From positions 1 through 39,252 of the forward strand of contig SYGN01000030.1 of the NCBI GenBank assembly GCA_005799525.1: a DNA stretch of 39,252 nt. Reading direction: 5' to 3'. Both the position numbers and the translations under genes were made by a program. The stretch is from Opitutaceae bacterium. GTDB taxonomy: Bacteria; Verrucomicrobiota; Verrucomicrobiia; Opitutales; Opitutaceae. Below the pieces are notes generated by a model. That model was given only the letters and a program-made list of their open reading frames with translations, was not told where the DNA came from and ran no database searches. Numbering within the stretch: position 1 is the stretch's first letter; every line of letters begins with the position of its first letter. Below are positions 6,601 through 21,275 of the stretch, piece by piece.

Positions 6601-9600
6601 GTTTGCTAAAACATGAGATGATTTTGGCGTCGGCCGGCTCGGGGAAAACCTATGCGTTGACGAACCGCTTCGTGCAGCTGCTGGCGGGAGGAGCGCCGCC
6701 GGAGCGGATCGTGGCGCTGACGTTTACGCGGAAGGCGGCGGGGGAGTTTTTCGACGAAATCCTCAAGAAGCTGGCGCGGGCAGCGGCGTCGGAAGACGCG
6801 GCGTATAAGCTGGCGCATGACGTGCACGCGCCGGCGTTGACGACGGCGGATTTTTTGCGGCTGCTGCGGGCTGTCGTGGAGGCGATGCCGCGGTTGAGTC
6901 TCGGGACGCTGGACGGATTTTTCGCGCGCGTGGTGCGGAGCTTTCCCTTCGAGCTTGGGTTGACGGGGGAGTTTCAAATCATGGAAGAGGCGGCGGCGCG
7001 ACGGGAACGGCGGCGGGTGCTGCGGCGGATGTTTGCAGCGGCGGGCGAGCCGGACGCGGCGCAGCGGGAATTCATCGAGGCGTTCAAGCGCGCGACGTTC
7101 GGCCTGGAAGAGAAACGACTCGCGCGGTTGCTCGACGAGTTCTTGGACGCGCACGGGCATACTTTCTTGGCGGCGCCGGAGGCGTCGCGTTGGGGACAGG
7201 CAGGGGTGATCTGGCCGGACGGATGCCCGGGCCTCGCCGCCGCCGGACGGCGCGTACCGGCAGCGGCAGAACTGCACGCGGCGTTGCCGTGGGAGGCGTT
7301 AAACGAAAAACAACGCGCACGTTTGCAGGATTTTTTTACGACGCTGCCGGTGTGGTCACCGGGTGCGCCCCTCCCGGGCCCGGTAAAATATTTGGTGGGA
7401 AATAGCCTCAAGATATGGGACGAGCTCAACTCCGGTGCCGAGGGCGTAGAGCTGATGATCGAGCGGAAAAAAGTGACGCTGGAGGCGCGGGCGCGGACCG
7501 CGTTGGTCGACCTGGTCGCCGGGATCGCGGGTGCTGAACTCGGGGGGAGTCTGGAGCGGACGCGCGGCCTGTTTGCCGTCTTGCGCGGCTACGAGGTCAA
7601 TTATCACGAGGCGGTGCGGCGCGCGGGGCGGCTGACGTTTGCGGATGTGCTGCGTCTGTTGTTGCCCGGCACCGACGGGCAGGTGCCGGTGTTGTCGAGC
7701 GGAGCCGAGGGCGACGCGCGGCTGTTGATCGACTGGCGGCTCGACGCGAAGTTTGACCACTGGTTGCTGGACGAATTTCAGGACACGAGTTACGCGCAGT
7801 GGAGTGTATTGAAGAATCTGATAGACGAGGCGGTGCAGGACCCGGAAGGGCGGCGCAGTTTGTTTTATGTGGGCGACGTGAAGCAGGCGATTTTTGCTTG
7901 GCGGGGCGGGGATCCGCGGTTGTTTCGCGAAATCTTCGACCGCTACAACACCGCGGCACCCGGGACCATCCACGAAGGACGGTTGGATGCATCGTATCGC
8001 TCGGGGCCGGCGGTGATCGCGATGGTGAATCGGATATTTGGTGACGTCCCGGCGCTGGCGGCGGGCGTCCCGCCGGCGGCATCCGCAGCGTGGGCGCGCG
8101 AGTGGCGGGCGCATGTCAGCGCGAAGCCGGAGCTCGGGGGCTGGGCGGAATTGCGTCACGCGGATGACGAGGCCGGGCGCTTTGCGGAGACGTTGAACAT
8201 TTTGCGGGAGACCCAGGCATTGGCACGCGGGCTGGAAGTCGCGGTGTTGGTACGCAGCAATCAGACGGCGGCGGCGCTCGCGGAATTTTTGCGCCGCGAG
8301 GGACCGATCCCAGCGGCAGCAGAGAGCGACCTGCACGTGGCGATGGACAATCCGCTGACGGCTGCGCTGCTGGCGTTGCTGCGGGCCGCGGCGCATCCTG
8401 GGGACACGCTCGCGCAGGAGCACGTGAACATGACGCCGCTCGGTGCGTGCTTGCACGAGGCCGGGATCGGGAGCGGCGAGGCGTTGACCGCGCACGTGCT
8501 CGGGCAGATCCACGAGCACGGGTTTGCGGGGACGATCGAGGTGTGGTTACGAACGCTCGGACCAGCCATCGACGGTGATGGGTTTAGCGCCGAGCGCGGG
8601 CGGCTGTTGGTGGGAGCGGCGGCGGAGTTTGACGAGAGTGGGAGCCGTGATGTCGCGGAGTTTCTGGAGTTCGCGGAACGTTTTACGGTGCGAGATACCG
8701 AAGCGGCGGGCGTGGTGCGGGTGATGACGATTCACAAGGCGAAGGGATTGGGTTTCGACCTCGTGATTCTGCCGGACCTCGAGGGTACGACGCTCGCGGC
8801 GGCGCGCGAGGGATTGGCGGTACAGCATGCGGCCGACCGGTCGGTGGAATGGGTATTGGCGAAGCCGATGAAGCTATTTGTGGAGCATGACCCCGTCCTC
8901 GCGGCGCATTTGGCGGCGAGCGAAGCGGACGCGGCTTATGAGAGCCTGTGTCTGCTCTACGTGGCGCTCACACGCGCGAAGCGGGCGATGTATGTGATCA
9001 CTGGACACGTTGGCGCGAAGTCCACGTCGCGGAATTTTCCATGGCTTCTGCGCGAAGTGTTGGGGGAAGTTTGGCACGAAGGAGAGGCGCGTTGGTTTGA
9101 AGCGGTCGAACTGACCGCGGCGGAGGCCTCGCGCGAAGAGCGGAGCCGGGAGGCGGCGAACGAGTCCCCGATCGCTGAAGGCGGAGTGGATGAGCACACG
9201 GTGCAGCGGGTGGTGCGGCGGCCGGCTCGCACGCCCTCGGCGCTGAAGACGGGGGAGGTGAACGGCGCGGCGTTGTTCGCGCTCGCGCGCGGCGGTAGCG
9301 CGGTGGAGTTTGGCTCGGCCGTGCATGCGATGTTTGCGGAGATCGAATGGTGGGACCTGAACAGTGGCGGGGAGGGCGCGAAAAAAACAATAGCGACGCT
9401 GGAAGAGTCCGGTGAAGCGGGAGCGGAGGCGGCGGGTTGCCTGCGCGCGGCCGCGCTGGCGGGTGTTTGGGCACGACCGAGCGGCGCGGTGGGCGCGGCC
9501 GTGTGGCGAGAGCGGGCGTTTGAGGTCGTGCTCGAGGGTGCCTGGGTGACCGGGGTGTTTGATCGTGTGATCGTCGAATGCGACGCCGAGGCGCGTCCGG

Positions 9601-9797
9601 TGCGGGCGACGGTGTTTGATTTCAAAACGGATCGAGTGGGGCCTGACGACGATTTAGCGACGTCGGCGCAACGCCACGCGGGGCAGCTGGCGGTTTATGG
9701 GCGCGTGGTGGCGATGCTCACGGGGATTTCCACGGCGCGGGTCACGTGCCAGGTGGTTTTTACACGTGTGCGCCGACGCGTGGAGGTGGGTTTTTGA
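6597..9797 (+). CDS. addA: AddA-like UvrD-type helicase-nuclease subunit
   Basis: The 1066-residue product is a superfamily 1A helicase with Walker A ASAGSGKT (11-18), motif Ia ([12 protein letters not shown]), motif [10 protein letters not shown] (Asp392, Glu393), [13 protein letters not shown] (motif III), SYRSGP, motif [12 protein letters not shown] (His713) and motif [11 protein letters not shown] (about 788). A RecB-type nuclease domain ends the protein: GSAVH (His910), FDRVI (Asp989), FDFKTD (Asp1008, Lys1010) and QLAVY (about 1030-1034). All catalytic residues needed for ATP-driven unwinding and DNA cleavage appear present. ATGA overlap with the addB-like gene indicates translational coupling. 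With both subunits carrying an intact nuclease motif set, the pair fits AddAB better than RecBCD. Confidence 0.92.
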
Positions 9798-9881
9798 CGG
9801 GGAAAACACGGGCAAAAGCATCGGTGAAAAATTCGGGCTGGACAGCGCGGTGCGCGCGCCGCACGTTTACCGTTTCCATTT

Positions 9882-9983
9882 ATGGGCAATCTCAAAAAGA
9901 AACGTCGTCTGAAGATGAACAAGCACAAGCGCCGCAAACGCTTGAAGTCGCATCGGCATAAGAAGCGTTCGTGGCAACAGTAA
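9882..9983 (+). CDS. bS22/AURKAIP1-COX24-like small ribosomal protein (33 aa)
   Basis: ATG at 9882 opens a 33-codon frame. The product starts [20 protein letters not shown] and ends [13 protein letters not shown], so about two thirds of it is Lys, Arg or His. It matches the AURKAIP1/COX24 domain pattern MG...KKRR..M.KHKRRK.LK..RHKK, known as bS22 in actinobacteria and mS38 in mitochondria, where it binds rRNA near the decoding region of the small subunit. It begins 84 bp after the addA-like stop, so it may be co-transcribed, and a strong terminator follows 58 bp downstream. The length is normal for the bacterial members. Such genes are often missed because they are so short. Confidence 0.85.
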
Positions 9984-10041
9984 GTCGCGCGTTTCCGCGC
10001 AACCCTGCCGTCTTCGTTGACCGCGTCTCATCGTCCGCCAA

Positions 10042-10067
10042 CCCGTCGCATGTAGCGACGGGTTTTT
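10042..10067 (+). terminator. Rho-independent terminator after the bS22-like gene
   Basis: A perfect 8-bp stem CCCGTCGC/GCGACGGG with loop ATGTA is followed by TTTTT (10063-10067). It closes the addB-addA-bS22 unit. Confidence 0.92.
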
Positions 10068-10616
10068 ATCTTGGGCCCAGATTTGAGGTTGCAGTGTTGA
10101 TTCGAGAGAAGCTTTAAACGTTGTCGTCATCTGTTTTCGTGGCGATGTTCGGCGGGGCGGGGCGAACGGAGACAGTCGGCCTTGGTGGGCGGAAACGGTC
10201 GCAGGGTTTGGCGAACCGTCCACGCGGACATCGAGATGATTATTCCGGCGCGCAGGGGCGTCGTTGACGGCACCGGACAAGAGCCGGTGACAGCCGCGAC
10301 ATGACGTCTGGCTCGGACGGCACGCAAGGTCTGCGTCGAGGTGGAAGGACCGCCTTGCTCGGAGCGCCTGGAAATCAGTCGTTCCCGAAGGAAAGGTAGA
10401 GGGCATGCAGAACGCGGGTAAATCCGAGTTTTAATCTTGTCATGCCAGAGGGGATTATGAGTTTCTCCTCTGGTTTCACGATTGCTTATCCGAAGGTGAC
10501 CAAGATTTTTGAAGCGTATGTCTTCCCGGCAAGCTCGACGTAACGAAGACGTCGCCTATCTACCCAAGCATAGTCAACTCCCCCCCGAATATCTTTAGGT
10601 CCTATGTTTTTATCCC
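10068..10616. other. Non-coding region upstream of the secretin operon, with hairpins
   Basis: No credible coding frame lies in these 549 bp. Several inverted repeats are visible: CACCGG/CCGGTG (10271-10276 with 10284-10289), GCAAGG/CCTTGC (10324-10329 with 10353-10358), a 10-bp stem with one G-U pair (10445-10454 with 10464-10473) and CGACGT/ACGTCG (10536-10541 with 10549-10554). No known riboswitch family was recognised. The region should contain the promoter and leader of the pilM-like operon. I could not find a convincing -35/-10 pair. Confidence 0.5.
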
Positions 10617-11666
10617 ATGAAACCTAAAGGGTTCTTCGTCGAACTGAACGATCACGCGGTGATGTTGGCGCGAACCTCTTCGCCGGTGGCACCGTTTACC
10701 GTTGAAGATATGCGGGAATGCCCGCGGGGCGATGCCGCCGCACTGGAAGAATGTATTCAGCAGATTCAGCCGAAAAAAGCTCCCAGCGGTTACCTGCATG
10801 CCTGCGTGGGCATTTATCCGGCAAAGCGCCTCGTACGGCGCCACGCGCTGGAGTTGAAGCGACTCAATGAGCCCGCCTATCTCGCCGAGGTTTGCACGCA
10901 ACAATTTCGCATCGAGCAGGATAAATATTCGATCTCGATCCTCAATGCAGCGGACGGGGCGGATTACGATCTAGCCAAAGCGACCCAGAAGGAGGTCATC
11001 TTCTGCGGGATGCCCGGCGAGGACATTGCCACGGCGCAAAATTTTCTGTTGGAGTCGGGCATCTATCCCGAACGACTTGAGCTCGGCTCCGTCGCGATGC
11101 TCGGTGGGGTGGTCGATGGTTTGGCTTTTACGAAGTCGAAGACTCCCACGTTGGTGCTCGAAATCGGCGCGGACACGACGCACTCGTTTATCGTTTCTGC
11201 TACGGGGGTGGCCGTCTCTCGCCCGATCCCGCAGGGATTGGATGCGATGGTGCCCATCGTCCAAAAGGAGCTGGGGCTAAAGGACGAGGAGTCGGCGCGA
11301 AAACTATTTTACTCAAACACGTTTGATTTCACCGGCATGGGCCCCTTGCTCGTCAAGCGATTGTTCAAGGAGCTCCAATCCTCCATCGGGTTTTATGAAG
11401 TGCAGACCGGTCAGTCGGTGGGACAGGTGTTCTGCACGCAGTTGTCGCCCAAGCTCGCGTGGCTTGACGCCGCGATCGCCAGCGCGCTTGGCATCACGAG
11501 CCTGACCCTTGATCCTGCGCCGTGGCTTCAGTCGCGGCAGATATCCCTGCCGGAGGCCCTGGCGAAGACCGCCCAAGATATTCGCTGGTTTGGCCTGCTC
11601 GGCCTGATGGCGCACTACCACTCCTCCCCGTCCGCCCATGTTGTCGTTCCTGAAGAAAAAAAATGA
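10617..11666 (+). CDS. PilM-like actin-fold protein of the secretin operon
   Basis: The 349-residue protein is soluble, with no signal peptide. The central segment TLVLEIGADTTHSFIVSATG followed by VAVSRPIPQG resembles the second phosphate motif of PilM/FtsA-type actin-like proteins, and SIGFYEVQTGQ matches the usual segment after it. The N-terminal phosphate motif (DIG in typical PilM) is replaced by FFVELNDHAVML, so ATP binding may be weak or lost. In type IV pili, PilM is cytoplasmic and binds the N-terminal tail of PilN. Context supports the call: PilN-, PilO- and secretin-like genes follow immediately. The ATG has no clear ribosome site. The 3' end overlaps the next gene by 29 bp and includes an A8 run. 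PilM function is inferred from fold motifs and gene order. Confidence 0.72.
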   Translation: MKPKGFFVELNDHAVMLARTSSPVAPFTVEDMRECPRGDAAALEECIQQIQPKKAPSGYLHACVGIYPAKRLVRRHALELKRLNEPAYLAEVCTQQFRIEQDKYSISILNAADGADYDLAKATQKEVIFCGMPGEDIATAQNFLLESGIYPERLELGSVAMLGGVVDGLAFTKSKTPTLVLEIGADTTHSFIVSATGVAVSRPIPQGLDAMVPIVQKELGLKDEESARKLFYSNTFDFTGMGPLLVKRLFKELQSSIGFYEVQTGQSVGQVFCTQLSPKLAWLDAAIASALGITSLTLDPAPWLQSRQISLPEALAKTAQDIRWFGLLGLMAHYHSSPSAHVVVPEEKK

Positions 11667-12264
11667 CGCGGGCGCCGCGCCCCTCGTGCCCGCGTGGCAT
11701 CCGAATTTCCGGAACGCCGAAAATTTACCGGACATCAAGGTCGTGCGCACGGCCTTCTTCGTCAACGGTGCGGCCGTGACCATCGCCCTCGCGTTGGCGA
11801 TTTTTTGCGGGGTGCAGGAGTGGCAGCTGCACGGGCTCAACCTCCAGATAGCGGACTGGCAAGAGCAGATTGATCGGGACGCACGAGGCAGCGCCAAGGC
11901 GGTCACGCTCTACCAGAAGTTCCAGGCGGAGGAGGCAAAAATTATGGAAGTGGACGCGTTTGGTAAGTCCAAACAAGTGGTCTCGGATTTGATCGTGCAT
12001 CTGGGTCAGACGCTGCCCGCCAATATCGCGCTCGACGGGCTCGATTTGCGCGATAACGGCCTCATGGTCCGCCTGACGGTGCGTGGCACGTCCGACGCTG
12101 CCCTCGGCTATGCGACCCACTACCTTGATCAACTCCGGGCGGACAAGAAACTGGCGCAGTTTGATGATTTTTCCATCACCGCCTCGACCCGCAATCCCGC
12201 GACGGGTCGCCTCGCGGTTGAGCTATTTTTCCGGCTACGGGCCACGACCGTCAAAAAACCATGA
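11638..12264 (+). CDS. PilN-like inner-membrane assembly protein
   Basis: The 208-residue product has a short basic cytoplasmic tail, one transmembrane segment (about 41-62, FFVNGAAVTIALALAIFCGV), a coiled-coil-like stretch (about 65-105) and a C-terminal domain rich in paired strands (IALDGLDLRDNGLMVRLTVR). That is the PilN/GspL-C topology. The classical N-terminal INLLP motif that docks on PilM is not present; NLPDIKVVRT may be its counterpart (inference). PilN partners with PilO to form the periplasmic platform linking the cytoplasmic machine to the secretin. The ATG lies inside the pilM-like gene and the stop overlaps the next start (ATGA), so translation is probably coupled. Confidence 0.68.
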   Translation: MLSFLKKKNDAGAAPLVPAWHPNFRNAENLPDIKVVRTAFFVNGAAVTIALALAIFCGVQEWQLHGLNLQIADWQEQIDRDARGSAKAVTLYQKFQAEEAKIMEVDAFGKSKQVVSDLIVHLGQTLPANIALDGLDLRDNGLMVRLTVRGTSDAALGYATHYLDQLRADKKLAQFDDFSITASTRNPATGRLAVELFFRLRATTVKKP

Positions 12265-12815
12265 GCAAAGACGAACTTTTGGCCTTCGTTCGCAAGAACC
12301 CCATCGGCATCGGCTGCGGCTTGTTGTCATTGGTGGTGGGTGGCTGCGCGTATTACCGCAGCGGCCTGGTGGCCGAGTTCGAGGCCGAGCTCTTACAGAA
12401 GTCAATGGAAGGTCGAAAGCTCGCCTCGAACCTCAGGAATGCGAACCAGCTGCAGGAGCACTACGAAGCGTTGGTCGCCGCCAACAAAGTGATCGACGCC
12501 CGGCTGGTACGAGCCAGCCAGCTCACGATTAACCTCCGGTATTTCTATAAAATTGAAAGCGAGACCGGAGTGAAGCTCACGACGGACCCGCGTATTTCTC
12601 CGCCCGCAGTCAAGAAAGATGCGAAGGCCGCGTTTGTCCCTTTGCCCTGCAATCTCTCGGTGCAGGGGACCCTCCCTCAACTCCTCGGCTTTCTCCGCCG
12701 ATTGGAAAGCGGCACTCACTACTGTCGGGTGCTCACGTTCTCGCTCGCCGGCTCCGTGGACCGCAATTCACCCCTCAACTTGTCCGTCAGCGTCGAGCTG
12801 CTCGGTTTGCCATGA
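12261..12815 (+). CDS. PilO-like inner-membrane assembly protein
   Basis: The 184-residue product has one membrane segment near the N-terminus (about 12-30, NPIGIGCGLLSLVVGGCAYY), a coiled-coil region (about 35-75, with EAELLQKSMEGRKLASNLRN), and a ferredoxin-like C-terminal half that includes LPCNLSVQGTLPQLLGFLRR and LESGTHYCRVL. The last part matches the PilO pattern in which a small domain senses or pairs with PilN. It sits between PilN-like and PilP-like genes with ATGA overlaps on both sides. Sequence identity to any named PilO could not be tested. The assignment depends on topology, the LxGxxxxLxxFLxxLE pattern and order. Confidence 0.68.
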   Translation: MSKDELLAFVRKNPIGIGCGLLSLVVGGCAYYRSGLVAEFEAELLQKSMEGRKLASNLRNANQLQEHYEALVAANKVIDARLVRASQLTINLRYFYKIESETGVKLTTDPRISPPAVKKDAKAAFVPLPCNLSVQGTLPQLLGFLRRLESGTHYCRVLTFSLAGSVDRNSPLNLSVSVELLGLP

Positions 12816-13399
12816 AACTACGATTCGCATTCTTTATCGCCGGTGGCGTGCTAAGTTCCGGTGCCCTTTCCGGTGCAACCGGCAAACCGAATTCAGGTAT
12901 CGTATCACCGGAGAAACGCCGGGTGGTCGTCGAGTTGGGTCTTCGACTGGCCCGGGTGCCTGAGCCGGCGGCCCTGCCACCAGATTTGCCACACCCGTTT
13001 AGTCCGTCAAACTTTGAGCAACCCGATCCCGAGGAGCTGCGCGCGGCGGACGCGGCTCGCGCAAATTCGGCCGGCGGATCGCGGGGCGGAGTCGTGGGAT
13101 CGGGTGGGGCGCTGGGTCCGGCCGCAGGCGGGCAGGCCCTTCGTCCTCCCTCCGACCGCGAGATTCTGGAAAGTATCGCGCCTAAAATCCGGCCCACCGG
13201 CACGATCAAGATGGGCGGCGAAGCTCTCCTCATTTTCGGGAGAAACCATGTCAAAATCGGCAATAAATTTACAGTCGCGGATCCGGCCAGCGGCAAGGAC
13301 CACGAACTTGAACTGATCGCCATCGATTCCACCGCCTTTACCCTTCGCTTCCGCGACCAGGAAATCACTCGGTCCATCAAATCAGGAAAGTCCCCATGA
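12812..13399 (+). CDS. Exported PilP/GspC-like linker protein
   Basis: The 195-residue product starts with a signal peptide (MKLRFAFFIAGGVLSSGALS). A Pro/Ala/Gly-rich linker (about 50-110) leads to a compact C-terminal domain (about 120-190) with GTIKMGGEALLIFGRNHVK, IGNKFTV, and LELIAIDSTAFTLRFRDQEI. That resembles the beta domain of PilP or the HR domain of GspC, which contact the N-terminal domains of the secretin in the periplasm. No lipobox is visible, unlike most PilP proteins. It overlaps its neighbours by 4 bp on both sides, directly before the secretin gene. The role as secretin linker is inferred from position and domain layout. Confidence 0.55.
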   Translation: MKLRFAFFIAGGVLSSGALSGATGKPNSGIVSPEKRRVVVELGLRLARVPEPAALPPDLPHPFSPSNFEQPDPEELRAADAARANSAGGSRGGVVGSGGALGPAAGGQALRPPSDREILESIAPKIRPTGTIKMGGEALLIFGRNHVKIGNKFTVADPASGKDHELELIAIDSTAFTLRFRDQEITRSIKSGKSP

Positions 13400-15306
13400 G
13401 TACCCGACCTCTTTCTCCGATCACCGCCATCGCTCTCCTGTTGACTGCGGCCTGGTCCGCCCTCCACGCCCAAGCCCCTGGCGCCCCGCCTCCGACTCCC
13501 CCTCCGGCCCAAACCGGGCCGGTGACACTCGAAGCCGGCAAGCTCGCCGACAAGCCCGCTGCTGTCGAAGTGCTTCCAAAATCGGGCGAAGAAGCGGCGA
13601 AGGTCGCTGCGGCCAAGGCCAAAGACGCCGCCGGTAAAGATAGCGTGTCGGTGGATTTTCGCGATCAGGACATTCGCGACATCCTCAGCAATGTGGCCGA
13701 TCTCTTCGAAATCAACTTGGTCATGCCCGAGACCTTGCAGGGAAAGCTGACGATTAAGCTGCGCGACGTCAGCTGGCGCCAGATTTTCACCCATGTCTTG
13801 GGCCCGGTGAACTACACCTACGTCGAGGACGGTAACATCATCAAGGTCGTCAGCAACGAAAGCCTCACCCAAGAACCCGTCATCACCGAGGTGTTCTTCA
13901 TCAACTACGCCCGCGCAGCCGACATTGTCCTCACCATCACCTCCCTCGTGGATGCGGCCGCCGGCGGCAAGATTGTCGTCGACGTTCGCAGCAATAGTTT
14001 GGTGATCACCGAACGGCCCACGCGCTTGACTCGGATCAAACCCATTATCGAGCAACTCGACCGGGCTACGGACCAAGTGATGATCGAGACAAAGTTTGTC
14101 GAAGTCACCAGTTCCGACGTGAAGAATATCGGTGTCAATTGGTCCTCGTTGGCCAATTACCAACTCAGGGCTGGCAATCTGGCCGGGAACTTTAATCGCG
14201 CTCGCACCCAAAGCGAGACCGACGGCAACAACGCCAACCGAGGCAACACTCGCAACGCCACCAACGGTACCAACGCTGGCACCGCCAACGGCACAAGCGG
14301 ATCCACGAGCAGCGCTGTCACGGGTGGCACCACTGGCACGCAGAGCACAGGTTCCAACACCACTGGAACGGTCACTTCCAGCAACGGCACGCCCACCAAT
14401 AACTCGACCACGGGCAGCAACGGGACCCTCAGCTCCAGCACGACGACGGGCACGACCACCAGCACCACTGGCGGCACGACCACCTCCACAAGCAACGATA
14501 CGACCAGCGGTGTCGCGAGCACCGTGACCGACGCGTTTAACGCGTTGTCCTCTCTAGCCAACGGAGGCACCACGAGCAAAGCGCTCTCGGCCGTGTTCTC
14601 GGCCAGCGACTTCAGCCTCGTGCTGAGCGCGCTTCAGACGACCACCAGTTCCAAGATCGTCTCCAACCCCACGGTCGTCACCCTCAACAACACCGAAGCG
14701 CTCATTAATGTCGGCCGGGAAACGCCCATCCCGAGATATGCCTTCAATCAACAGACGGGCACGTTTGAAGTAAACGGCTTCGACTACAAACCGATCGGTA
14801 TCATCCTTAGAGTTATTCCGCAGGTGAACGCACGCGGCGACATCAAGCTCACCGTTGAGCCCGAAGTCAGCCAATCCACCGGATCGGTCACCTTTAACGG
14901 TGCCAGCCTTCCAGTGGTGGACACTCGCAAAGCGAAGACGCAGGTCTCCCTGAAGGATGGTTTTACTATGGGCATCGGTGGCCTTATCACCACGCAGACG
15001 AGCGCCGTCGGCAACCGTGTTCCTGTGCTCGGCTCCATCCCGCTTTTGGGCCGATTTTTTAGGCACGACGATAAGAACGTCCAGCAGGTGAATCTCATCA
15101 TTTTCATCACGGCTAAGACCATCAGCGCCGCAGGCGGCGCAACGGAGCAGATCTTCGATTCCAGCCGCGTCCGGCAATTGGAGATCACGCGCGAGGACCT
15201 GCCGGGTTTCCGCGACGGTTCATCTCCTTTCCTACCCTCCGTCAAACCGGGTGAGTTAAAACCCGGCGAACAAGCGCCCGCCAAGAATTCCTCCGTCCGG
15301 CAATAG
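13396..15306 (+). CDS. Secretin (PilQ/GspD family outer-membrane pore)
   Basis: The 636-residue product has a signal peptide (1-25, ending LHAQA) and a Pro/Ala-rich linker. An STN/N0-like domain (about 83-153, VSVDFRDQDIRDILSNVADL) and an N1-type domain (about 163-225, FFINYARAADIVLTITSLVD) follow. The secretin domain starts near 227 (VMIETKFVEVTSSDVKNIGV) and continues through IVSNPTVVTLNNTEALINVG (about 421-440) to the signature VPVLGSIPLLGRFF (542-555) and VNLIIFITAKTI. Secretins form multimeric double-walled channels. A Ser/Thr/Gly/Asn-rich insert of about 100 residues (270-372) sits where GspD has its cap-gate strands. The short periplasmic part, with only two N domains, is closer to PilQ-like than full GspD forms. 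The gene starts within an ATGA overlap. Confidence 0.93.
   Translation: MSTRPLSPITAIALLLTAAWSALHAQAPGAPPPTPPPAQTGPVTLEAGKLADKPAAVEVLPKSGEEAAKVAAAKAKDAAGKDSVSVDFRDQDIRDILSNVADLFEINLVMPETLQGKLTIKLRDVSWRQIFTHVLGPVNYTYVEDGNIIKVVSNESLTQEPVITEVFFINYARAADIVLTITSLVDAAAGGKIVVDVRSNSLVITERPTRLTRIKPIIEQLDRATDQVMIETKFVEVTSSDVKNIGVNWSSLANYQLRAGNLAGNFNRARTQSETDGNNANRGNTRNATNGTNAGTANGTSGSTSSAVTGGTTGTQSTGSNTTGTVTSSNGTPTNNSTTGSNGTLSSSTTTGTTTSTTGGTTTSTSNDTTSGVASTVTDAFNALSSLANGGTTSKALSAVFSASDFSLVLSALQTTTSSKIVSNPTVVTLNNTEALINVGRETPIPRYAFNQQTGTFEVNGFDYKPIGIILRVIPQVNARGDIKLTVEPEVSQSTGSVTFNGASLPVVDTRKAKTQVSLKDGFTMGIGGLITTQTSAVGNRVPVLGSIPLLGRFFRHDDKNVQQVNLIIFITAKTISAAGGATEQIFDSSRVRQLEITREDLPGFRDGSSPFLPSVKPGELKPGEQAPAKNSSVRQ
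14203..14511 (+). repeat. Low-complexity Thr/Ser/Gly/Asn-coding insert in the secretin gene
   Basis: About 100 codons dominated by ACC/ACG, AGC, GGC and AAC encode residues 270-372 in loosely repeated NGT, TTG and STT units. The tract lies inside the secretin domain, between the GVNWSSL strand and the segment ending SKIVSNPTVVTL. Confidence 0.85.
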
Positions 15307-15376
15307 GACCCAGACGAAAAGAAGTAACCGGCTCGCGCGCCAACCCGCTACTCAGCCCGACCACGAGGTGCCTACC

Positions 15377-18300
15377 ATGAAACCTTTCTTCCGCTTCTTC
15401 CTCGGCGCCGCCCTCCCGTTCCTCGCGAGTGTCGCGATTCGAGCAGCCCCCGTCATGACCCCTTCCGGCGTGACCGCGACCGCCGCGTCTGCCGCGCCCG
15501 GTGAGGCGATCACTATCTCCGTTTCGGCGACGAATGCCGGTACCGCGACCCCGGCGGACGATATGGTTGCGGGCGGGACGGTGACGGGAACCGTCGTGTT
15601 TACCCACCGCGTCACGGGGGCCACGATCTCGACGGACTCCGTCACTTTTTCCACCAAGGCGGTTATCGCGGGCGCCGGCGGTGAGGGCACGTTTACCCGG
15701 ATATTTACGGTCCCGACCATCACCTCGCAGGCGGGTTCCTACGATGCGAGCGTCATGCTGACTGGAGCTAGCGCGGGCGGCTCGGCCTCGGGTTCCTTCT
15801 CTGCCACCAAGGTGCTCACCGTCACGGGCACCCCCGACCTCGCAATCACCGGGCTCACCTATCCGGCCGGCACCGCCTACCGCGGTGGCGACGTGATTCC
15901 GATGACGCTCAGCTACACCAATCGTACGCGCAGCATTGGTTTGAACAACGTCCCCTACGTCCCGAGCACCAACGGCAATGCGGCTTCCTTCCGCATCGAG
16001 GTCATCCTCTCGAGCAATCCCACCTTTGGCGACGCCGACGATTTTCTGCTGACTGCGCATCAAGTCACCGCTTCGAGCGGTTTCCCGCTCAACGCCAACA
16101 ACACCAACACCGCGATCGGCTGGAATCAGGTTCTTCCCGGTAACTTCGCCGGTTCCTACTATGTGATGGCCAAGATCGACACTCTGGCCGGTGTCACCGA
16201 GACGATTGAAAATGACCTGACTGACAACGGTAACAACATCTACTCCACCCCGGACACCAATGCCGCCCGGATCAGTCTGCTGCCGACGAACTTCCCCACG
16301 GTCAACTGGGCCTCCACTGCGGGTAACGGTTACAGCGACAACCCGACGGTCACCTCCGACGGACGCTACACCGCCTATGTCTCCGACTCCACGACGCTCG
16401 TCACCGGAGACACCAACTCGGTCCGTGATGTGTTTATCTACGACAACCAGACCGCGACCGCCCGTCGCCTTAGCGTCGCGCAACAGGGCGCACAGTCCAA
16501 CGGCGCCTCCAACCACCCCGCCATTTCCGCCGTCTCGACCAACGGCACCTACGTGGCCTTCTCCTCCGATGCGACCAATCTTGCCCTCGACGACACCAAC
16601 GGCTTTTCGGACATCTACATCGTCAATGTCTTCACCGGCGTCATCACCCGCGTGAGCGTGTCGACCGCCGGCGTCCAGAGCAACGGCTCCAACTTCAAAC
16701 CCGCCATCAGCGTCACCGGTCGCTACGTCGCCTGGGAATCTACCGCCACCAACCTCATCGTCGCCGGCACCTCCGTCGGCGTGACGCATGTTTATCTCCG
16801 CGACCGCGACGTGGCGAATTCCGGCACCTACGACACCGCGGGGAATGTTTCGACCGTTCTCATTTCGCAGGCCACCGGCGCCGCCACCCCGGGCAACGGC
16901 CACAGCATCCAAGCCACCGTCAGCGCGGATGGCCAGTTTGTCGCCTTCGCTTCGGACGCGACCAACCTCGGCGGTACGGTCGGCGGCGGTTTTCGCAATA
17001 TCTACCTGCGCGACGTCACGAACTCCACGACGACCCTCGCGTCCTTCGGTACCGCCGCCGCCGCCAGCAACGGGTCCAGCCGCGCTCCCTCGCTCAATCG
17101 TAACACGGGGGTGACTACGGGCATCTCCGCCGATGGTCGCCATGTGGCTTTCGGCTCCGAGGCCAGCAATCTCATCACCGCTGGCACCGATACCAATGCC
17201 GTGTCCGATATTTTTGTCTACGACCGCGTCGCGCGCGCGATCACCCGCGTCAGCGTCTCCTCCGCCGGTGCCCAGGCCGCCGATCCCTCCGCCACGTCGG
17301 CGCAACAACTCGGCAGCATCAACCCCAGTATCAGTGCCACCGGCCGTTACGTCGCCTTCGCCTCGCTCGCCGATAATCTCACGGCGGGTGATAGCAACGG
17401 CCAGGCCACCATCACCGACGCCAACGGCGCGATGGACGTCTTCGTGATGGACCGTGACGTGAGCAACAGCGGCACCTTCGATACCGCCGCCAACCTCGCC
17501 ACCACGATGGTGAGCAAGAACCGCTTCGGCTACCAGACCTCCTCTCTTCTCGGCACCCCCAGTACCGCTGGGTCCGATATTTATCCGGTGATCAGCGCCG
17601 ACGGTCGCTGGGTCGCGTTCCCCTCGGACGCGGAAAACACCGGGGGCCTCATCCATGGCGCGACCAACCGCACGTCACCCGACTTAAATACCTTCCGCGA
17701 TGTTTTCCTGCACGACCGCCGGATCAACGCCCTGCCCGCCGCCACGACTCCTCCTGCCGTTGCAGTGACGAGTCCGGTCACCGCCACGACATATCCGGTC
17801 AACAGCGCGATCACCCTGATCGGTAGTGCGAGTGCGCCGCTCGGCACGATCGCCAGCGTCCAATTCTTCGTCAACGGCACCAGCCTCGGCATCGACACCA
17901 GCTTCCCCTATAATGCTACTTGGACCCCCACCGCGACGGGCAGTTTCTCCCTGAGTGCACTCGTCACCGACTCCTTTAGCAACCAGGCCTCCTCAGCCAA
18001 TGTGAATATCACGATCGCCGCCGTCAGCCCGACCGCGCCCACGGTCAGTATCACGTCGCCAGCGACCGGTGCCGCCCTGTTCGCCAACGCCCCCACCGCC
18101 GTCTCGGCCGCCGCGAGCGATTTCGACGGCACGGTCGCGAGCGTCCAGTTCTTCGCCAACGGCGTATCCATTGGCACGGATACGACCTTTCCCTACAGCG
18201 TACAGTTTACACCCGTTGCCACCGGCAACTACACCCTGACGGCCGTGGCGACGGACAATGGTGGCAACCAGACGACCACGACTGGCGCCGGCAATTCCAC

Positions 18301-20557
18301 CGTCAGCGTCACGAACCTGACTGCGCCCACGATTAGCATCACGTCGCCCACCCCGGTCTCGATCAATGCCATCACCACGATCACGGCCACCGCCGCCTCC
18401 GGTGGTTCGATTGCCAGTGTTCAGTTTCTCGCCAACGGGACGACTCTCGGCACTCAAACGACGGCTCCGTTTGCGTTTTCTTGGACGCCCACTGCCGCTG
18501 GCAGCTACAGCCTCACCGCGGTCGCGACGGACAACTTGGGTTCGCAAACCACCTCGGCCACCATCACCGTCGTCGTCAGCTCCGGCGCCTCGCCGGTCTT
18601 CTCTCCGCTGACCCCGATCGTGCCCGCGACAATCTTCGTCAACACGGCGCAAACCATCACGGCGGCGGTGGCTGATGCAGACGGCACCGTCGTGAGCGTC
18701 CGGTTTTCCGTCAATGGCACCATCCTCGGGACGGCCATCGCCTTTCCTTATTCCGTCACGTGGACGCCCAAGACCGCCGGTGCCTACACCGTGCTCGCGG
18801 TGGCCACCGACAATCTCGGCAACCAGACCACGTCGTCCGCCGCCTCGGTCATGGTCTCGTCCGGCGCCGCCCCGTCGGTCGCGCTGACGTCGCCGAGCAA
18901 TGGGTCCATCGTCCGCGTCGGCTCGGGGGCCATGCTCGCGGCCACGGCCGCTGATTCGGATGGGACCATCGCCAGCGTGCAGTTCTTCGCCAACGGTCTC
19001 TCGATTGGCACGGACACGACCCCGCCTTACTCGGTACAATGGACGCCCACTGCCGAAGGCATCTATCACCTTACCGCGGTCGCCTTGGATAATTCCGGTG
19101 CCGTCACCACGTCGGCCACCCTCATGACCTTGGCGATGGGGGCCTCGTCCGGTGGGTCCGATTCGGTTTATACCGGCACCTATGCCGGTGGTGGCGAGCT
19201 CGGGCGCTTCGCGGCCATCAGCATTCGCGGGAAAACGGCCGCCTTCATTGGTTTCTCCACCACCACGCCCAATCGCGTTTACTCCTACGACAGTCTGCCT
19301 CTCGACCTCGGCGGTGGCTTCTTCCGGCCGGACTCGCTCGGTCGTGGAATCATTTCCGGCTCCGTCAACGACACGGGCGCGTCCGGAACGCTTGATGCCG
19401 GTCGGGTGACCTTTATCGGCCCCGTCACCTTCCCGATGGCGAGCGGCAGCGTGGCTGCAGGCTTGTATTCGGGTAATCTCTCTGGGCGGCCGACCAGCTT
19501 GGTCAATGCCATCGTCGGCTCCGATAGGGCCATTTTTGTCTACATTACGGATGGCGGGTCCTTCCGCGATGCTGGGGCCGGTGCTCTCAGCAGCACCGGG
19601 GCCTTCGCCATTACCACGTCCTCCGGTAATCGGTTCATCGGCCGCGCCGATCCCGTGACCGGGTTCCTAGGCGGCACGCTCACGGGCGGTCCCGGCGGTA
19701 CGTTCACGGCGGCGCTCGCGTCGGGCGTTTCTTTTAGTGACGGCTTCTTGCGCAACCTCTCGACGCGCGGTCCGGTCGGCACCGGCAACGACGTGCTCGT
19801 CGCCGGGTTTGCCGTGAGTGGTAGCCAGCCGAAACGCGTCCTGATTCGCGCGATCGGCCCCACGCTCGCCGTGTTTGGTGTGACCGGTGCATTGGCTCAC
19901 GCCCGGCTTGAACTCTTTAGTGGCAGCACGTTGATTGGCTCCAATGACAGTTGGGGTGGTGCGGCCAATGTAGTGGCAGCCTCCGCACAAGTCGGCGCGT
20001 TCGCTCTGCCGGCGACGAGTTTGGATTCCGCGATCATCGCGACGCTGCCGCCCGGCCCTTATACCGCCCTAGTCAGCGGCGTCGGTGGTCGCAGCGGCCT
20101 CGCCCTCGTCGAACTCTACGACCTCGACACCCAGCAGGCTTTCTCGACCCAGAAACTCACCAATGTAGCCACCCGTGCCATGCTCACGACGGCGCAAAAC
20201 GAGATTATCGCGGGCTTTATGGTGAGCGGATCGATCGCCAAGAAGGTGCTCATCCGTGCCGTCGGCCCGACCTTGGGAGGTGCGCCGTTTAATCTCCCTA
20301 ATGCCTTGGCCAACCCTATGCTCAGTCTCCTCCGCAGCGACGGTGTGGTGATTCGCGAAAACGATAATTGGGAGATCGGTAATGATGCGGCGTTGATCAA
20401 CGAAGCCTCCGTGAAGGTGGGTGCCTTTGCGCTCACCGCCGGTGCGAGAGACTCTGCGATTCTCATCAACCTGCCGCCGGGCATCTACTACGCCCAAATC
20501 AGCGGAGCGGCCCCCGGCCCCGGCACCGTCCTCGTAGAAGTCTACGAAGTTCCTTAA
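15377..20557 (+). CDS. Giant exported beta-propeller and Ig-repeat protein (1726 aa)
   Basis: The product starts with a signal peptide (MKPFFRFFLGAALPFLASVA). Residues about 25-300 look like CARDB-type adhesion domains (DLAITGLTYPAGTAYRGGDV). Residues 300-790 hold PD40/TolB-like blades with repeated SADGR.VAFASDA.NL and DVFVYDR units. Five Ig-like repeats (about 792-1254) share SVQFFANG.SIGTDTT..Y and LTAVATDN. The C-terminal 230 residues contain two copies of GF.VSG..KRVLIRA.GPTL with a following NDSW or NDNW. It is predicted to be secreted or surface-bound; no enzyme motif was seen. A GTG three codons upstream is possible, but GAGG at 15365-15368 spaces well for ATG 15377. It begins 70 bp after the secretin stop and ends at a terminator, so it may be cargo of that system (inference). 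Confidence 0.85.
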   Translation: MKPFFRFFLGAALPFLASVAIRAAPVMTPSGVTATAASAAPGEAITISVSATNAGTATPADDMVAGGTVTGTVVFTHRVTGATISTDSVTFSTKAVIAGAGGEGTFTRIFTVPTITSQAGSYDASVMLTGASAGGSASGSFSATKVLTVTGTPDLAITGLTYPAGTAYRGGDVIPMTLSYTNRTRSIGLNNVPYVPSTNGNAASFRIEVILSSNPTFGDADDFLLTAHQVTASSGFPLNANNTNTAIGWNQVLPGNFAGSYYVMAKIDTLAGVTETIENDLTDNGNNIYSTPDTNAARISLLPTNFPTVNWASTAGNGYSDNPTVTSDGRYTAYVSDSTTLVTGDTNSVRDVFIYDNQTATARRLSVAQQGAQSNGASNHPAISAVSTNGTYVAFSSDATNLALDDTNGFSDIYIVNVFTGVITRVSVSTAGVQSNGSNFKPAISVTGRYVAWESTATNLIVAGTSVGVTHVYLRDRDVANSGTYDTAGNVSTVLISQATGAATPGNGHSIQATVSADGQFVAFASDATNLGGTVGGGFRNIYLRDVTNSTTTLASFGTAAAASNGSSRAPSLNRNTGVTTGISADGRHVAFGSEASNLITAGTDTNAVSDIFVYDRVARAITRVSVSSAGAQAADPSATSAQQLGSINPSISATGRYVAFASLADNLTAGDSNGQATITDANGAMDVFVMDRDVSNSGTFDTAANLATTMVSKNRFGYQTSSLLGTPSTAGSDIYPVISADGRWVAFPSDAENTGGLIHGATNRTSPDLNTFRDVFLHDRRINALPAATTPPAVAVTSPVTATTYPVNSAITLIGSASAPLGTIASVQFFVNGTSLGIDTSFPYNATWTPTATGSFSLSALVTDSFSNQASSANVNITIAAVSPTAPTVSITSPATGAALFANAPTAVSAAASDFDGTVASVQFFANGVSIGTDTTFPYSVQFTPVATGNYTLTAVATDNGGNQTTTTGAGNSTVSVTNLTAPTISITSPTPVSINAITTITATAASGGSIASVQFLANGTTLGTQTTAPFAFSWTPTAAGSYSLTAVATDNLGSQTTSATITVVVSSGASPVFSPLTPIVPATIFVNTAQTITAAVADADGTVVSVRFSVNGTILGTAIAFPYSVTWTPKTAGAYTVLAVATDNLGNQTTSSAASVMVSSGAAPSVALTSPSNGSIVRVGSGAMLAATAADSDGTIASVQFFANGLSIGTDTTPPYSVQWTPTAEGIYHLTAVALDNSGAVTTSATLMTLAMGASSGGSDSVYTGTYAGGGELGRFAAISIRGKTAAFIGFSTTTPNRVYSYDSLPLDLGGGFFRPDSLGRGIISGSVNDTGASGTLDAGRVTFIGPVTFPMASGSVAAGLYSGNLSGRPTSLVNAIVGSDRAIFVYITDGGSFRDAGAGALSSTGAFAITTSSGNRFIGRADPVTGFLGGTLTGGPGGTFTAALASGVSFSDGFLRNLSTRGPVGTGNDVLVAGFAVSGSQPKRVLIRAIGPTLAVFGVTGALAHARLELFSGSTLIGSNDSWGGAANVVAASAQVGAFALPATSLDSAIIATLPPGPYTALVSGVGGRSGLALVELYDLDTQQAFSTQKLTNVATRAMLTTAQNEIIAGFMVSGSIAKKVLIRAVGPTLGGAPFNLPNALANPMLSLLRSDGVVIRENDNWEIGNDAALINEASVKVGAFALTAGARDSAILINLPPGIYYAQISGAAPGPGTVLVEVYEVP
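17750..19135 (+). repeat. Five tandem Ig-like domain repeats within the giant gene
   Basis: Units begin near 17750, 18040, 18325, 18590 and 18865, each about 260-290 bp. Each encodes ITSP-type first strands, a central VQFFANG-type strand and an AVATDN-type end. The DNA copies are diverged, so this is an old duplication at protein level rather than a recent tandem array. Confidence 0.8.
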
Positions 20558-21275
20558 CCCAGCGGCGGCCTGCGGGCCGATATCTGGTGACTCTCCAAGG
20601 CCGCATCTTACCCGTGCGGCCTTTTTCGTGGCCGGAGTGTTTCGTTGCCGCCACGCAGCCCGCTACCAGAGCCCGCCCATGAACCCGGCCATGAGTTTTA
20701 CCCACGATGACCCCCGCGTTTTTCGCGGCGTGCGCGACGAAACACGGTAACAGCGAGCGTTGCGGATTCCACGCCGCGAGCCGTGCGGAGTAGAGCCAGA
20801 GCGACGTCGCGAACACCACCCCAGTGCTGAACCAGCCCTTTGCTCCCGGCGTCAGCGCAAACCCTGCGTCATCCCACCGCCACAAAAACGGATGCAGCAC
20901 TGCAAAGATGACCGACGCCCCGACGGCTGCGGCCCACGTCACGGCGCGTCCCCGGTTTTCCACCACGAGCCAGCCGCGAAAAATCAACTCCTCAATGATC
21001 GGCGCCGCCACCACGGAGTAGAGCGCAAACAGCCACGTCATCCGGGACTGTTCCCCCGCGATCCCGAGGGCCGCCTCACCCCAAGTCTCCACCGTGAGAA
21101 TCGCCAACGCTCCCGTCACCGCGATGATCACCGCCCGCTGCGGAGCGTCGGTTGCGCCCGGCAGTCCCCCTTGATTTGGCGTCTCCGCGCGGGCGGCCCG
21201 CCGATCCCCCAGCCACAACGTGCCCACATAAATTCCGGCTGCCGTCATGAACAAAAGCAGAAGGGGATGATTCAT
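20499..21275 (-). CDS. CPBP-family intramembrane protein, probably frameshifted near the C-terminus
   Basis: The 258-residue frame starts at ATG 21275 and encodes several membrane helices (MNHPLLLLFMTAAGIYVGTL onward). The three CPBP/Abi motifs are present: EELIFRG, FAVLHP and HAAKN, the metal-binding residues of the Rce1-like protease fold. After HAAKNAG the frame becomes basic and runs 59 bp into the end of the neighbouring convergent gene and across its terminator. Reading one base shifted at the G5 run (CCCCC at 20711-20715 on the plus strand) gives SSWVKLMAGFMGGLW and a stop at 20663. That is a natural hydrophobic end outside the neighbour. A one-base error or mutation is therefore likely. 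The substrate is unknown; members act in immunity, peptide processing or stress. Confidence 0.75.
   Translation of the reverse strand: MNHPLLLLFMTAAGIYVGTLWLGDRRAARAETPNQGGLPGATDAPQRAVIIAVTGALAILTVETWGEAALGIAGEQSRMTWLFALYSVVAAPIIEELIFRGWLVVENRGRAVTWAAAVGASVIFAVLHPFLWRWDDAGFALTPGAKGWFSTGVVFATSLWLYSARLAAWNPQRSLLPCFVAHAAKNAGVIVGKTHGRVHGRALVAGCVAATKHSGHEKGRTGKMRPWRVTRYRPAGRRWVKELRRLLRGRCRGRGPLR
20597..20627 (+). terminator. Rho-independent terminator of the secretin/giant-protein unit
   Basis: AAGGCCGCA pairs perfectly with TGCGGCCTT over nine base pairs around a nine-base loop, and the stem runs into TTTTT (20622-20626). Confidence 0.88.

Follow-up and report, generated by a model that had tools for sequence, protein, structure and literature searches.

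The 39,252-nucleotide contig SYGN01000030.1 of an Opitutaceae bacterium (GenBank assembly GCA_005799525.1), here referred to as the window, carries at positions 10617-20557 of its plus strand five overlapping genes for a pilus-type secretin and its alignment complex (designated M, N, O, P, and Q), followed by a gene for a giant exported protein. This region might represent a single transcription unit that encodes an envelope-spanning machine related to the type IV pilus (a type 4 filament) together with a dedicated giant surface cargo, an interpretation for which the odds appear to be about even. What the sequences show is the gene order, the domain content, the conserved and recurrent linkage of the giant to secretin genes, the position of the motor parts at other loci, and a PilP-like predicted fold of P. 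The window is an entire contig (C175) of a 4.7-Mb assembly (G000) that comprises 343 contigs and is 84% complete.

Genes M to Q span positions 10617-15306, with successive overlaps of 29, 4, 4, and 4 bp, within the range of 4 to 29 bp that an earlier note on this DNA had reported. The PilM-like M (10617..11666, 349 amino acids [aa]), the PilN/GspL-periplasmic-like membrane protein N (11638..12264, 208 aa), and the PilO/GspM-like membrane protein O (12261..12815, 184 aa) match the respective models only below the cut-offs: 35.9 bits versus 133 for TIGR01175, 17.5 bits versus 29.6 for GspL_C, and 18 bits versus 60 for T2SS_GspM_XpsM. No sequence relatives of M were found among solved structures at E of 0.01, and no sequence family could be assigned to P (12812..13399, 195 aa) at E of 0.1. 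The AlphaFold model of P, built from an alignment of 48 sequences (predicted local distance difference test [pLDDT] score of 83), has a C-terminal β domain at approximately residues 120 to 190 that resembles the HR domains of PilP and GspC. The best aligned chains were GspC (3oss, Z score of 7.0), PilP (3jc8, 6.7), PulC (6hcg, 6.7), and PilP (2y4y, 6.6); these alignments cover 61 to 66 residues, and the best unrelated entry, with a Z score of 5.9, is little below them. Foldseek alone returned no match to P with E under 0.001, and in all structure comparisons chains missing from the match lists were not counted as excluded. P is thus predicted to carry a PilP/GspC HR-type domain, with the modest Z scores offering support rather than proof. 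The identity of Q (13396..15306, 636 aa) as a secretin is clear from its match to PF00263 (148.8 bits versus the Pfam cut-off of 27.5). Q consists of an N0 domain, one Secretin_N domain, a Ser/Thr/Asn/Gly-rich (S/T/N/G-rich) stretch at about residues 245 to 405, and the channel core; it scores below the cut-offs of both the PilQ model TIGR02515 (239 bits versus 284) and the GspD model TIGR02517 (216 bits versus 351), and no AMIN domain was detected in it at E of 0.1. Judging from the gene order and the predicted fold of P, the five genes form a PilMNOPQ-like module.

The giant, described in the earlier note as a propeller/Ig protein of 1726 residues located 70 bp after the secretin, is indeed found there (15377..20557, plus strand; 1,726 aa). 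Its open reading frame (ORF) extends from 15368 to 20557, and the ATG codon at 15377 is preceded by GAGGTG. The protein starts with a signal peptide (recognized by eye), has PD40 propeller repeats in its N-terminal half, five Big_7 immunoglobulin-like (Ig) domains, and a tandem C-terminal domain, designated CTD-A, and contains no cysteine at all. Downstream of it, a terminator-like hairpin with a T-run (20597..20626, plus strand; z of -2.6) agrees with the terminator noted earlier, although this hairpin is absent from the pattern-scan list. The scan found no promoter-like site on the plus strand in the 70-bp gap between Q and the giant; this is weak evidence, as it found none upstream of M either. 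The gene overlaps, the 70-bp gap, and the hairpin after the giant favor a single transcription unit, in which the giant would be expected to be cotranscribed with M to Q.

The comparison of gene order proposed in the earlier note revealed that the giant is linked to the secretin in neighboring genomes as well; the absence of linkage that the note had named as a refutation was thus not observed. A scan of named genomes, in which the nearest relatives were metagenome-assembled genomes of Opitutia bacterium and Opitutus sp. and many further ones were Opitutaceae, retained 80 loci. Of these, 63 could be read past Q and 17 were dropped because the secretin or the downstream region was unreadable. 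The order M-N-O-P-Q is retained wherever readable, and in 40 of the 63 loci, classified by hand, Q is directly followed by a long same-strand frame with a signal-peptide-like start; this frame has at least 850 aa in 34 loci and is cut short by the contig end in the other 6. In most loci without a giant, the next gene, identified by eye, is a CPBP protease gene on the opposite strand or a polyprenyl-synthase-like gene. In the window, too, the giant gene has a CPBP protease gene after it, so the giant sits within an otherwise stable locus.

A sample of the phylum yielded a similar picture. The M family was found at E of 1e-20 in 45 of 387 genomes, and stretches of up to 20 kb were analyzed at 42 loci, one per genome (L199-L240). 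The remaining three genomes were that of the window, G003 (L241, an M-N-O-P set with no secretin after it), and G445 (L242, a fragment of M); a second M-like set in each of four genomes (L243-L246), with no secretin match, was also kept outside the 42. The named-genome and phylum sets share genomes, so that their counts should not be added. A giant of 1,149 to 4,655 aa follows Q in 14 of the 42 loci, representing four families: 9 among the 29 loci of the window's family and 5 among the 13 loci of three other families. The window's family is taken to be Opitutaceae on the basis of shared contigs. Automatic counting gave 13 of 39; it did not score L199 (with a giant), L201 (with broken M and Q frames and no giant), and L233 (with no giant). 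L225, in which the slot is split into frames of 429 and 1,041 aa, was counted as having no giant. The largest secretin-linked giants are those of L200 (4,232 residues, 4813-17508 in the oriented stretch) and L234 (4,655 residues, 4868-18832).

The proteins that occupy this slot differ widely. A Pfam scan of 11 of the 14 giants revealed RCC1 and CARDB domains in L228 and L232, RCC1 in L229, and PSII_BNR or sortilin-like matches in L236 and L234. The scanned giants of the window's family include one RCC1-type protein, in L210; Big_7 Ig domains were found in the remaining five. Outside that family, the giants (1,775 to 4,655 aa, with matches to RCC1 or BNR-type propellers) are unrelated to that of the window.

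The same arrangement was found at secretins of a second type, resembling Amuc_1098 of Akkermansia. Matches to the respective model, NF042912, were found at E of 0.001 in 126 of the 132 genomes of the order, in 111 of them at E of 1e-40 or better; none exceeded the curated cut-off, and the weaker ones may be other secretins. Q itself scores 96.1 bits against this model, with a cut-off of 750. In the window's genome, contig C281 encodes such a secretin (439.6 bits, likewise under the cut-off) 3' of PilM-like and alignment-type genes; within 30 bp of it starts the gene for an exported Ig protein with nine Big_7 stretches, whose length is 920 aa or more, the contig end cutting it off. Twenty Amuc_1098-like loci (L247-L266) were hand-picked for long contigs and family spread before their downstream genes were seen. 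In 9 of the 19 that were scored (all except L257), representing five families, an exported protein of 881 to 3,137 aa lies within 300 bp.

Giants of the two operon types can share their C termini. At each of the two operons of G035, the giant has two copies of CTD-A at its end; in G055, both giants share a different, tryptophan-rich C-terminal domain. The latter is also found at both operons of G021 by coordinates, the frame on C24 lying directly beside the Amuc_1098-like secretin. In these two genomes, the domain was matched 4 and 8 times, the matches in the window-type giants being weak (E of 1e-6); no match was detected in G000, G035, and G049. An unnamed tryptophan-rich domain was seen at the C termini of the giants in L266, L258, L262, L234, and L236, and in 3 to 13 places per genome in G055, G021, G129, G094, and G062.

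GspD-type secretins served as the control, represented by the 30 best-scoring loci of the 99 genomes with a match. None of the 30 is clearly followed by a giant: the next gene, judged by eye, is GspE-like in 8, encodes a short exported protein in 14, is unclear in 7, and in 1 (L284) is an enzyme-like frame whose open end precludes sizing. Inspection by eye likewise found no giant exported protein at the end of the M-N-O-P sets without a secretin (L241 and L243-L246); four of these (L241, L244, L245, and L246) are M-N-O-P-like sets after which no secretin stands. Pairing at two pilus-type operons, with no clear case among the 30 GspD-type loci, indicates that it belongs to pilus-type operons and not to secretins in general.

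These observations bear on the possibility of a chance adjacency that has been inherited by descent and has no functional meaning. Such an origin would fit the few independent gains or losses of the giant, whose presence requires at least six changes on the tree of M, two of them on strongly supported branches. It does not explain why unrelated proteins fill the slot in other families and why the second operon type is arranged alike. Besides, in the same stretches, a large exported same-strand neighbor was found in only 28 of 905 other downstream pairs (17 of these 28 neighbors being a secretin); the nominal binomial P values against this background are 9e-11 and 2e-9, uncorrected for relatedness. 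A mere chance adjacency is therefore disfavored and looks highly improbable.

The secretin and the content of the slot can apparently change together. In the clade L116-L129 (8 loci), which has no giant, M is 64 to 69% identical to that of the window and the secretin channel only 30 to 35%; in L161 and L163, which have a giant of the RCC1 kind, these values are 52% and 39 to 41%. In the other 38 loci with a giant, the channel is at least 58% identical to that of the window. The trees of M and Q disagree for both clades; their long branches meet in the Q tree, so that their joint placement is not trusted. The sequence comparisons suggest two or three such events, which could represent linked replacement by recombination. 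The S/T/N/G-rich stretch of Q is 88 to 161 residues long in each of the 40 loci with a linked giant; of the 23 giantless loci, 13 have a stretch of no more than 62 residues. The medians are 137 and 58, respectively.

CTD-A (19745..20551, plus strand, in the window) consists of two copies of approximately 131 aa. This was the case in all 30 loci examined (25 distinct proteins), and in 26 of them (23 proteins) the second copy ends 1 or 2 residues before the stop codon. Among the secretin-linked giants with a readable end, 13 frames of the named-genome set end in CTD-A alike; in the phylum sample, CTD-A ends 7 of the 9 giants of the window's family, the exceptions being L207 and L210. The domain is not restricted to these proteins: a search with the final 176 residues of the giant matched the window's genome at 74 places, in about 40 open frames on 31 contigs. 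One of these, on the small contig C314 (L026, 3636-7784, minus strand), encodes another CTD-A giant and is convergent to a GspE/GspF pair. In the phylum sample, with up to 11 candidates scored in each genome, 21 of the 387 genomes have CTD-A; the window's family accounts for 18 of these 21. A dependence of CTD-A on the window operon was considered and is weakened by the 28 of 45 M-containing genomes that have no CTD-A match, of which 15 belong to the window's family (including G445, with its M fragment only), and by CTD-A genomes that have no M match (see below). The tandem was modeled from 14 sequences (pLDDT of 78), and its best Foldseek match was the collagen-binding tandem of ColG (5iku, E of 1.7e-9); Z scores to PPC-type domains are near 7, among those to other β-sandwiches. 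No match to Pfam PPC (PF04151) was found in CTD-A, and its profile showed no relation to the one PPC-containing giant compared. Based on these models, CTD-A is a predicted PPC-like terminal module, not specific to the secretin-linked giant.

The earlier note had found no pilin or motor genes adjacent to the operon. This holds for the window contig but not for the genome, whose other contigs contain 8 matches to T2SSE, 16 to N_methyl, and, in four frames, 8 to the T2SSF domain; the note's caveat that the absent parts may lie elsewhere was correct. With these genes on other contigs, their absence at the locus is ordinary and says little. The genome has four secretin matches, including Q, the others being on other contigs. 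Inspection by eye identified a GspE-F-pseudopilin cluster along with secretin pieces on C199, a GspE-like gene after a GspD-like secretin gene on C228, and a PilT-like gene on C19.

Several observations weigh against an operon that encodes a machine and its dedicated cargo. No pilin or motor could be assigned to the window operon. The suggestion in the earlier note of an export or surface-display system built around a dedicated cargo gains from the conserved and recurrent linkage, but the giant is not obligate, being absent from 23 of the 63 readable named-genome loci and from 28 of the 42 phylum-sample loci. With only two changes on strongly supported branches of the M tree, the giant-bearing loci cannot be counted as independent. 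In seven giantless loci, the secretin channel is still similar to that of the window (62 to 68% identity), so loss of the giant need not alter the secretin; in eight more, the identity is 51 to 58%. Adjacent genes can, moreover, be exchanged jointly without any functional coupling. An association between a long S/T/N/G-rich stretch and the giant (41 of 41 loci with a giant and 9 of 23 without) was not used because the tree offers only 2 independent pairs. Of the approximately 40 CTD-A frames of the window's genome, only that of the window was seen directly after a secretin, and 4 of the 21 CTD-A genomes (G412, G451, G142, and G361) have no M match. The scatter of CTD-A proteins through the genome and their presence in those four genomes would also be expected if the giant were a surface protein exported by another route and merely coregulated with the secretin, as operon neighbors are often related in function without direct contact. 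Such coregulation is hard to square with the unrelated giants, the two secretin types, and the lack of a clear GspD-type pairing, and it is considered rather unlikely.

If the operon does encode a machine with its own cargo, M, N, and O would be anchored in the inner membrane and P would link them to the secretin Q, with a filament or piston driven by unlinked pilins and ATPases. The Sec system could export the giant to the periplasm, where the machine would take it over and then move it through, or display it at, Q. It may be an adhesive or ligand-binding string of beads made of propeller and Ig domains, with the tandem PPC-like domain as a lineage-specific terminal module common to many proteins of the genome. 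Pilus-type secretins would then be candidate exit routes for the giant surface proteins that these bacteria make. The usual view is that type IV pilus machines move pilins; the repeated pairing with unrelated giants within one order offers natural replicates for studying how a machine of this type selects and transports nonpilin cargo. Among the matches listed in a literature search, no open-license title on pili, secretins, or giant proteins of Verrucomicrobia or Opitutaceae describes a pairing of secretins with giants. One could go further and propose that both kinds of pilus-type secretins of the order each export one dedicated, freely replaced giant, that the machine is retuned via its secretin, and that lineage-specific C-terminal domains, the tandem PPC-like one in the window's family and a tryptophan-rich one in others, tag dozens of unlinked proteins for the same exit. 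This extension is speculative and unlikely to be correct in full; if true, tagged exit via pilus-type secretins would follow a logic similar to that of the type IX secretion pathway.

The right border of the locus is formed by the gene for a CPBP (Rce1-like) membrane protease (20655..21275, minus strand), which adjoins the secretin gene directly in several giantless relatives. Its listed ORF (20499-21275, minus strand) is apparently frame-shifted near the 3' end, as residues resembling the C terminus of its relatives run on in another frame, and it consequently extends into the terminator and the end of the giant. On the left, the plus strand encodes a PD-(D/E)XK nuclease and a UvrD-type helicase-nuclease, an AddB/AddA-like pair (3781-9797), and a very basic 33-residue ORF (9882-9983) that matches COX24_C (PF08213) and that gene callers could easily miss; a strong hairpin at 10040 lies shortly downstream of this ORF. 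No Rfam families or tRNAs were found in the window.

Among known systems, the closest in layout is PilMNOPQ of type IVa pili, which occurs as a stand-alone operon. The window shares with it the order M-N-O-P-Q, the predicted PilP/GspC HR-like fold of P, and the location of motor and pilin genes elsewhere, and differs from it in the subthreshold M, N, and O, in a secretin that has no AMIN match and carries a long S/T/N/G-rich stretch, and in the giant as the last gene. It differs from the type II secretion system, where GspD has domains N0 to N3 in place of a single Secretin_N stretch and M and N are fused in GspL; also, no linked GspE, GspF, or GspG genes were read at the locus. Amuc_1098 is described as an abundant outer membrane PilQ of Akkermansia (PMC4960237). 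Like it, Q is a verrucomicrobial pilus-type secretin, and the Amuc_1098-like operons of the order resemble the window in having a PilM-like gene (in C281) and, often, a giant next. However, Q is shorter, scores far below the Amuc_1098 model, and belongs to a separate system in the same genome. CTD-A is comparable to the PPC and ColG collagen-binding domains as a tandem C-terminal β-sandwich; it differs in its lack of a Pfam PPC match and in the unit of approximately 131 aa that occurs as a terminal pair.

The giant itself can be compared with two kinds of pilus-associated proteins. TcpF is reported to be encoded in the type IVb TCP operon and secreted via the pilus machine by binding a minor pilin (PMC9565799). 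The window giant resembles TcpF and CofJ in being an exported protein encoded in a pilus operon, a likeness by position only; unlike TcpF, it is multidomain and much longer. CofJ is a further case of pilus-operon cargo, and to our knowledge few cases of operon-encoded cargo of type IV pilus machines have been described. PilY1, in turn, is described as a pilus-tip adhesin with variable domains, which varies outside its propeller (PMC13190605). Similarly to PilY1/PilC, the giant is large, variable, propeller-bearing, exported, and linked to pilus genes, but it is encoded after the secretin and not with minor pilins.

The giant could even be a functional stand-in for PilY1, an adhesive tip or priming protein that is carried on the pilus and not released. 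PilY1 (PF05567) was detected in only 1 of the 132 genomes of the order, although most of them have Amuc_1098-like secretins, and giants encoded with pilus-type genes are often variable and propeller-bearing. Yet no PF05567 match was found in the giant at E of 0.1 or elsewhere in the window's genome, and the propeller occupies the N-terminal half of the giant and the C-terminal part of PilY1. Besides, minor pilin genes are not adjacent, many genomes with the operon have no giant, and the PilY1 search gave no positive among its 14 control genomes, so that its sensitivity rests on the single match in G049. A stand-in for PilY1 is therefore conceivable but not likely. The best reading is that the giant is a dedicated, fast-changing cargo or adhesin of a pilus-type machine, analogous to TcpF or PilY1 and probably without homology to either.

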